The translations under genes were made by a program, and so were the position numbers. Of a stretch of 64,000 bases of DNA, positions 57,704-60,832 are shown one piece after another; position 1 is the first letter of the stretch; the number at the start of each line of letters is the position of its first letter. Where the stretch lies: contig VGMW01000001.1 of the NCBI GenBank assembly GCA_016866235.1, forward strand, positions 310,001 through 374,000, read 5' to 3'. This DNA is from Bacteroidota bacterium. GTDB lineage: Bacteria > Bacteroidota > Bacteroidia > Cytophagales > Cyclobacteriaceae. Under the pieces are notes generated by a model. The model searched no databases, was not told where the DNA came from, and worked only from the letters and a program-made list of their open reading frames with translations.

Positions 57704-60700
57704 ATGCCTACCCTCGATGAGCAAATAATAAAATGGCGCAAACTTGCCTCCGCTGAGTCCGGCTCCATAGATCCGGAGGCGACGCTTTGTCGTGAGGTTG
57801 GTTCTATGAAATTTAAGTCTGTTTATTCCGCTGCAGATGCACACGGAATTTCGCATCAGCCGGTTCAAAGAATAAGTAAGCCCTTCATCGGGCCTGGGGG
57901 TTGGTATAATCTCCCTGAAATTTCTGCAGACTCAGATGATCTGGCCTGTACTGCTGCTTTGGAGGCATTGAATTCCGGCGCCAACGGAGTGGTATTTCAT
58001 GTTCGTGAAGGTTGGGATCCAGCGATCATGTTAAAAGGTATTCATGCTCGGTATTGCTTTCTTGGCTTTACATCCACACGCTTTAATACCGATTTCCTTG
58101 AAGCACTGGACAAACGACTGTTAATCGAAGAAGCTCCTCCCGAGGATTTTACCGGCGCTCTTTTTCAAGACAATACTGTTGTTGAGTCATTCAAATTGAA
58201 TTCCTGGGTTGCCAGGAAAAATTTTCGGGTTGGAGGAATCAACACAGATGCTGAAACCTGGGTAAAACACCAGGTTCAACTCTTTCAATCAGGTAGCGTT
58301 ACTGAAATCAATCAGACAGCCTTGTCACTTATTCTGCCCGATAATTTTTTTCAGGCTATAATTGAACTGAGGGCTTTGCGTTTGGTCAGGCAATCAATAG
58401 AAAATCATTACGGAGTTTTTGGGCATCCGGAATTCATTCGTTCCCTAGTTCAGCCCGCTATAAATTCCAATAAGGAACAAAATCTATCCATGATCGTTGG
58501 TGCAACACAGGGATTTGCCTCTGTCTGTGGTTGTGCCGATGCTTTAACCATCCTGCCGGAAGACCCTACCAATGCTGTTCATCGGCAAACGGCCAGAAAC
58601 ATTTCCTTATTACTGACAGAGGAAGGACTTTTGGATAAAATTACTGATCCGATTTGTGGATCCTGGTTTATTGATCATGCTGTTAATCAACGTGCACAAC
58701 AGCTTCTGCAGCCCTTTGGAATTTCAACAACATCAAAGAAGTTGCCCTTGGATAAAAACAAGGAAAAAAAGTCTTTTATAACCCGTGAGGGTATTGAAAT
58801 TAATTCCCAGCCAATCGTCAATAATCAAATTCGATCTTCTGTCGAAACCCAAATGCCCGGCGTTCAGCCTTTTTTAAGAGGCCCTTATGCAACGATGTAC
58901 TCGGTAAGGCCTTGGACCATTCGTCAATATGCTGGCTTCTCCACTGCTTCTGAGTCCAATCGTTTTTATCGCAACAATCTTAAGGCCGGACAGAAGGGAT
59001 TGTCGGTTGCCTTTGACCTCCCAACCCACCGCGGTTACGATTCAGATCACCCAAGAGTATCGGGTGACGTGGGCAAGGCGGGGGTGGCCATCGATTCGGT
59101 GGAGGATATGAAAATTCTCTTCGATGGCATACCATTGGATTCGATGTCTGTTTCAATGACTATGAATGGGGCCGTTATCCCTATTATGGCCTTTTATATT
59201 GTGGCAGCGGAAGAACAAGGCGTTCCATTGGATAGACTTTCCGGAACCATTCAAAATGATATTCTCAAAGAATTCATGGTCCGGAATACTTTTATTTATC
59301 CACCTAAGCCTTCCATGCGAATTGTTTCTGATGTAATGAAATTTTGTGCAGCCTATATGCCAAAGTTTAATTCAATCAGTGTCAGTGGCTATCATATGCA
59401 TGAGGCTGGTGCGCCTGCCCACATCGAACTCGCCTATACCCTTGCCAATGGTTTTGAATATTTGCGATCGGCTGTTGAAGCCGGAATTTCAGTTGATGAA
59501 ATAGCGCCACGCATATCATTTTTTTGGGGTATCGGTATGAATTTTTTTATGGAGGCTGCGAAGATGCGTGCAGCCAGACAATTGTGGTCAGAGCTCGTTT
59601 CTGAATTCAAACCGGCAAATGCCAAATCTCTTGCGCTTAGAACACATTGCCAGACCTCTGGATGGAGTCTTACTGCACAGGATCCTTACAACAACATTAC
59701 TCGAACCTGCATTGAAGCTATTGCCGCAGTGGTGGGTGGTACACAGTCATTGCACACCAATGCACTGGATGAGGCCATCGCATTGCCTTCTGAATTTTCT
59801 GCTGCCATCGCAAGGTCAACACAACTGTATCTCCAGAATGAATCAGGTCTAACCGCGGTAGCCGACCCGTTTGCCGGATCTTTTTACCTGGAGCACCTGA
59901 CCGATCAACTGCTGGAAAAAGCCCGCGTAATTATTGCCGAGGTACGGACGCAAGGTGGAATGGTGCAGGCGGTTGAATCCGGTATTCCAAAACGAATTAT
60001 TGAAGAGGCGGCTGCATCAAGACAAGCACGAATTGATTCATCAGAAGAAATCATTGTTGGTGTGAACCGATACCAATCCGGAAGCATTACGGATTTTAAA
60101 ATATTGGAAGTTGACCATGCGCAGGTGCGTAAGGAGCAAATGAATCGTTTGTCGGAGGTTAAAAGCGGGAGGGATCAGGAAAAAGTTGATGCGGCGTTGA
60201 AGCGTTTGGAGCAAGGTGCGAAAGGTGATGAAAATCTGCTGGCATTGGCGGTTGAAGCAGCAAAGTGCCGTTGTACGTTAGGTGAAATAAGTCTGGCGTT
60301 GGAAAAGGTTTTTGGCCGACACCAAAGCCGAAATATTTCAGTTACTGGCGTATATTCAGGATTCATGAAGGATCAGGAAAAAATAAAGACGGTCAGAGCC
60401 CTCAGTGACAACTTTGCTTCGACCCATGGAAGACGTCCACGAATTCTTGTGGCTAAAATCGGACAAGATGGTCACGACAGGGGTGCACACATCATTGCAT
60501 CCGGATTTTCTGATCTGGGCTTTGATGTTGATTTGGGCCCATTGTTTATGACGCCATCCGAAGTTGCCCGACAAGCCATGGAAAATGATGTTCATGTGGT
60601 TGGTATTTCCAGTCTTGCCGGTGCTCATAAAGCGCTAATCCCTGAACTCAGAAAGCAGATGGATGATTTGGGTATGAAAGAAATCCTTTTGGTTGTTGGC

Positions 60701-60832
60701 GGTGTCATTCCGGAGCAGGACTATGATTTTCTAAGAAAGGAAGGCGTCGCATTTATTTTTGGTCCAGGCACACAGGTTTTTGAGGCTGCCAGGGTTTTAT
60801 TGGAGCATCTCATCACAAAGAGTACGCTCTGA
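57704..60832 (+). CDS. Methylmalonyl-CoA mutase, small- and large-subunit regions fused
   Basis: The preferred start is ATG 57704 (an in-frame TTG lies at 57698); the product is 1042 residues. Residues about 1-345 match the mutase small-subunit barrel ([46 protein letters not shown]), but the small subunit's own B12-like domain is absent. After a linker (about 345-385, [12 protein letters not shown]) a complete large subunit follows: [20 protein letters not shown] begins near residue 391, and the cobalamin domain holds DGHDRG (Asp922, His924, Gly927). The enzyme converts methylmalonyl-CoA and succinyl-CoA using adenosylcobalamin. In most bacteria mutA and mutB are separate genes. It is not IcmF, which has a G-protein domain. 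No meaB is adjacent. Confidence 0.93.

Follow-up and report, generated by a model that had tools for sequence, protein, structure and literature searches.

We have analyzed a gene, here called mutAB, in a 64,000-nucleotide stretch of DNA from a bacterium of the Cyclobacteriaceae (the window; positions 310,001 to 374,000 of contig VGMW01000001.1, assembly GCA_016866235.1). Its product is one chain in which a short linker joins a MutA-type barrel to a complete MutB. We interpret it, with a probability of about 0.8, as a methylmalonyl-coenzyme A (methylmalonyl-CoA) mutase in which an inactive MutA barrel and an active MutB form a single polypeptide, with the A–B pair lying within the chain. The parts are ordinary; of interest are their covalent joining, the repeated occurrence of this form and the partner's stepwise erosion. 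We recognized no description of a MutA–MutB fusion in the open-access literature, as represented by listings and the openings of abstracts and with subscription papers falling mostly outside it.

The two halves of the mutAB protein

The reading frame begins with ATG at 57704 and continues without a stop to the TGA ending at 60832, giving 1042 amino acids (aa) as stated in a first-pass annotation of this DNA. A TTG two codons 5' of the ATG is a possible alternative start. Pfam finds two MM_CoA_mutase stretches in the protein (the best at residues 360–871; protein E = 1.3e-230) and a B12-binding match at residues 913–1029 (E = 1.9e-20). The features are summarized in Table 1.

The C-terminal half is a complete MutB with the DGHDRG motif, as had been proposed. 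It scores 1190.6 bits against the methylmalonyl-CoA mutase (MCM) equivalog PRK09426, exceeding the cut-off of 876, and in a structure search it was 57–59% identical to the MCM large subunits of human, Propionibacterium and Mycobacterium. On alignment with chain A of the Propionibacterium enzyme (1req_A, 5req_A) the Tyr of YAGFST, the Arg of PSMRI, the SGYH pair and one 11-residue stretch are kept. The substrate-barrel Tyr, Arg and Tyr-His are thus present together with a cobalamin domain carrying DxHxxG, as seen both in the alignment and in the conservation in alignment A4. We take the aligned Tyr, Arg and Tyr-His to be catalytic residues, and the His of DGHDRG to be the cobalt ligand; the titles of solved structures name mutants at two such residues (Y89F in 5req and H244A in 1e1c). 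The genome also encodes a carboxyltransferase, a separate MeaB, an adenosyltransferase and an epimerase-like gene that scores 114.2 bits, slightly below the cut-off of 114.95. This is the set expected for a route from propionyl-CoA to succinyl-CoA. A PF01642 search of the genome found no separate MutA.

The N-terminal half can be assigned as a MutA-type barrel, in agreement with the first-pass annotation. Residues 1–345 alone match TIGR00642, the MutA small subunit (E = 3.8e-12), MM_CoA_mutase (E = 8e-10; 38.3 bits, cut-off 22.1) and the solved MutA chains 6oxc_B (E = 3.5e-05) and 1e1c_B (E = 0.0027). When the half was represented by a profile of 20 relatives it aligned with columns 76–468 of a MutB profile, with a probability of 99.8% and E = 4.8e-30. 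The alignment falls over the barrel part of MutB, and this rules out a triose-phosphate isomerase-type barrel unrelated to MutA. Nineteen MutA halves aligned together were too diverse for use as a search query. The Tyr-His pair is missing from the MutA half, where different residues or gaps are aligned with it. It is homologous to the MutA barrel, catalytically degenerate and directly 5' of mutB, where relatives have a separate mutA. Only 70 residues lie between the barrel-end motif and RGPY, so there is no room for a C-terminal B12-like domain, and the claim that the half lacks one is borne out.

A model of the full-length protein, with 47 sequences in the alignment, had a mean predicted local distance difference test score (pLDDT) of 82.5 and a predicted template modeling score (pTM) of 0.87. 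Its N-terminal half has a two-residue strand near residue 68 and then seven strands of at least three residues (from 95–99 to 280–283) alternating with helices, an order that fits a (beta/alpha)8 barrel whose first strand is short. By our estimate the 692-residue MutB part alone could hardly exceed a pTM of ~0.66. The higher value therefore suggests that the model is also confident in how the two halves are placed relative to each other, and the model supports an A–B pair inside one chain.

Some observations weigh against our interpretation. Residues 1–345 score 45.2 bits with TIGR00642, under its cut-off of 617.25. The MutA half is very divergent, with 16–26% identity to the 84 relatives compared, and when it was folded alone without an alignment the model was unusable (pLDDT = 36.5). 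A separate full-length 606-aa MutA of the family likewise falls under the TIGR00642 cut-off, scoring 322.7.

Table 1. Features of the mutAB gene and the adjoining dnaA, in window coordinates.
Feature	Position	Strand	Basis
mutAB fusion gene	57704..60832	+	Open frame; Pfam and NCBIfam matches
MutA-type inactive barrel, residues 1–338 (arm ~1–60, core ~67–338)	57704..58717	+	Profile searches; secondary structure of the model
Linker between the halves, residues ~339–359; in-frame ATG/GTG none, TTG two	58718..58780	+	Linker and start-codon scan
MutB catalytic barrel plus the helices after it, residues 360–871 (MM_CoA_mutase)	58781..60316	+	Pfam; 57–59% identity
Tyr-His pair, residues 563–564, aligned with SGYHM of solved large subunits	59390..59395	+	Alignment; invariant in alignment A4
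Cobalamin-binding domain, residues 913–1029	60440..60790	+	Pfam
DGHDRG motif, residues 922–927	60467..60484	+	Sequence; alignment; conservation in alignment A4
dnaA, head to head with mutAB	56132..57568	−	Marker of the same locus in relatives

Occurrence and origin of the fused form

Our survey covered this phylum. A search for the MutA–MutB order in one protein, advised in the first-pass annotation, found it in a single frame at 31 of 90 translated loci, a fraction that is not a random rate since every long frame seen was included. The fusion is not a one-off, and is common in the genus. All fusion counts rest on translated loci and not on tabulated open-frame lengths; a candidate with an open-frame length of 1022 (G013) proved on translation to have a stop separating the two genes, and an 894-aa frame (G383) was not a fusion. 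Within the genus 56 of 62 genomes have a MutB match, from which three partial matches (G053, G039 and G044) were left out. Of the resulting 53 translated loci 23 are fused, while MutA is short and separate in 27 and lacks an intact frame within the stretch in three; the 23 include two (G074 and G047) where the contig end cuts MutB, yet the halves are joined. Outside the genus the counts are minimum values. At least 36 other genomes of the family have a match; fusion was found in five of the 29 that were translated (G292, G307, G239, G313 and G301), and the other seven show frames of 712 to 737 aa. Three of eight translated genomes from other families of the order are fused (G026, G030 and G035).

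We also sampled the phylum evenly; of the 148 genomes drawn, 136 match the MutB query at E = 1e-120, shorter relatives included. Among the matches listed, frames of at least 1000 aa come from the window genome, from G056 of the same genus and from G417 of another class. Twenty loci of this sample were retrieved, both other long frames among them, and on translation G417 has a 1096-aa MutA–MutB frame; four other genomes examined from its family have separate MutA frames of 586–593 aa. Among named records, labeled mostly Cytophagales or Cyclobacteriaceae, MutB is present at 55 loci and fused to MutA at 21 of them, two of which are cut at a contig end (many genomes are shared with the 90-locus set, and L148, which has no MutB, was left out). 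The cultured strains Ohtaekwangia koreensis DSM 25262 and Roseivirga pacifica CGMCC 1.12402 have fused frames of 1078 and 1091 aa respectively. The genes are separate in Chryseolinea serpens, Chryseolinea lacunae and five Fulvivirga loci.

The fused and separate forms mostly occupy the same locus beside dnaA. Whether the genes are fused or separate, dnaA lies upstream on the opposite strand at 52 of the 55 named loci and at 64 of the 90 loci, many of which have flanks too short to show it; in L143 and L149 it is farther from the mutA-mutB locus. In the window dnaA and mutAB stand head to head (56132–57703), and hence have one common intergenic region.

We compared the mutA stop with the mutB start in 54 separate pairs, taking as the start the ATG or GTG nearest the stop. 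They overlap by four bases in 38 pairs and by one base in five; in the remainder they are 3–12 bases apart (eight pairs) or 57–93 bases apart (three pairs). The fusion would have formed in place from such a pair. Because the usual overlap is four bases, one small indel or the loss of a single stop would suffice to join most of these frames. The linkers of the fused proteins differ strongly across lineages, with 53–91 residues from the barrel-end motif to RGPY where the motif was found.

A single fusion event can be rejected, both by an approximately unbiased (AU) test and by the scattered fused state on the MutB tree. On a tree of the MutB halves from all 90 loci the fused state requires 15 parsimony changes, at least seven of them forced by well-supported branches; in a set of 49 of the 90 loci there are 12 changes, and the AU test rejects a single fused clade with p = 2.25e-143. 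The trees were built quickly and contain some long branches, and the changes cannot be read as gain versus loss. The exact position of the window locus in the tree is unsure because its branch is the longest (1.14 changes per column). On these trees the fused state has been gained or lost repeatedly. One separate pair with a four-base overlap (G003, locus L016) falls within a well-supported clade of nine in which the other eight are fused, and is a possible case of a fused gene that has split.

Erosion of the MutA partner

Separate MutA frames, measured from stop to stop, fall into three sizes, of 606–612 aa (three loci), 462–511 aa (15 loci) and 309–419 aa (36 loci). A MutA of 606 aa covers positions 2 to 615 of the MutA model (620 long), while one of 471 aa extends to 450 and one of 385 aa to 406. 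Since the shorter frames end earlier on the model, MutA that is still separate can be seen to have lost first the B12-like domain and next the post-barrel segment. All 27 separate MutA frames of the genus are of 407 aa or less. The first-pass annotation held that the fusion had dropped the B12-like domain. The domain is indeed absent, but fusion need not have caused its loss in the genus because separate MutA there lacks it too. The G417 fusion may perhaps differ, as its examined relatives keep a full-length MutA.

Among the 59 unfused loci there are five where the stretch contains no intact frame for MutA (G004, G023, G025, G038 and G040). In G040 (L040) MutA is split into two frames of 240 and 151 aa upstream of an intact MutB, and in G023 (L024) there is no long MutA frame upstream of an intact MutB. 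These two represent either MutA loss in progress or sequence error.

Median identity is 28% for MutA halves, compared with 78% for MutB halves. The ratio of non-synonymous to synonymous substitution rates (dN/dS) was 0.09–0.25 for MutA and 0.01–0.05 for MutB in the 11 of 18 close pairs that gave both values, and fused and separate forms did not clearly differ in this respect. One further pair gave a value for MutB only (0.087), and the remaining pairs were saturated or without a value. Across these 11 close pairs MutA diverges at non-synonymous sites a median of ~8 times faster than MutB, with values from 1.5 to 15. The MutA half is under purifying selection, but loosely kept.

We tentatively suggest, at somewhat less than even odds, that covalent linkage is a near-neutral state toggled repeatedly by small indels at the four-base overlap, with the partner shrinking stepwise from ~610 to ~480 to ~380 aa into the tethered scaffold of a single-chain pseudo-heterodimer. 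The reason for an inactive MutA beside MutB in many bacteria is not obvious, given that the human enzyme is a homodimer. This one family provides a natural series of deletions and fusions, for the most part at a single locus, from full MutA through MutA without the B12-like domain and the bare barrel to a barrel fused to MutB. Comparison along the series would reveal what parts of the inactive subunit are important, and structural studies have in the fused form a mutase that is already a single chain.

Function, alternative interpretations and neighboring genes

The MutB half would bind adenosylcobalamin and methylmalonyl-CoA and isomerize the latter to succinyl-CoA. The MutA half, with neither catalytic residues nor a B12-like domain, would be an attached structural partner filling the dimer interface, and the model predicts that it docks on MutB intramolecularly. 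The enzyme would be a monomer or a homodimer, as the first-pass annotation supposed; the model favors an A–B pair in one chain. The heterodimeric MutA/MutB enzymes (1req, 6oxc) similarly have one inactive and one active barrel, the latter with the 57–59% identity given above, but they are made of two chains, and in the window protein the MutA half has neither the post-barrel segment nor the B12-like domain. Human MCM (2xij) has a MutB-type chain with a substrate barrel and cobalamin domain. It is, however, a homodimer, according to an excerpt of PMC9974510, with no inactive barrel fused to it. The same paper states that contact of the extorquens enzyme with the G-protein chaperone is not predicted.

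IcmF is a known fusion with a G-protein domain (excerpt of PMC10481361). Like the mutAB product it is a natural fusion of the acyl-CoA mutase family and of similar length, but it has the G-protein (MeaB-like) domain in its chain. Pfam finds no such domain in the window protein, only MM_CoA_mutase and B12-binding, and the IcmF model scores 304.7 against a cut-off of 1500. The window protein was therefore rejected as an IcmF, and the distinction drawn in the first-pass annotation holds; an IcmF-like frame of 1131 aa lies elsewhere in the genome. Isobutyryl-, ethylmalonyl- and 2-hydroxyisobutyryl-CoA mutases are also homologous to the window protein, and it might be one of these. Yet the matches to true MCM large subunits are far stronger, the MCM equivalog cut-off is exceeded and the genome has the separate IcmF-like frame, making another acyl-CoA mutase highly improbable.

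The halves might pair differently, the MutA half docking on the MutB half of another chain to give a swapped (AB)2 dimer and not a self-contained monomer. Linkers varying over 53–91 residues make a swap sterically thinkable, but the single-chain model places both halves with a pTM of 0.87, and we consider the swapped dimer unlikely. Free MutB could also arise beside the fused chain from an internal start near the junction, either at the two in-frame TTG codons of the window linker or at the in-frame ATG or GTG codons present in the scanned junction stretch of 16 of the 31 fused genes. The other 15, the window gene included, have no ATG or GTG there, and such a start seems very unlikely. A joined frame could also result if a separate mutA-mutB pair had been wrongly sequenced or assembled, given that one indel joins or splits the frames and that many relatives are metagenome assemblies. 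Against this, the same join is found in many independent assemblies, two cultured strains among them, the linkers vary by lineage and the window contig is 967 kb long, so the chance of such an error is close to negligible. A chance open frame is excluded by the same order in one frame at 31 of the 90 translated loci. We thus prefer a methylmalonyl-CoA mutase with the A–B pair in a single chain.

Two further genes of the window were noted. The genome, of 2.77 Mb, carries a bacteriorhodopsin-like gene (55181–55891; PF01036, E = 3.9e-42) beside dnaA. At 52032–53543 there is a protein of the GH3 family (PF03321, E = 1.2e-40), which is best known from plant hormone conjugation.
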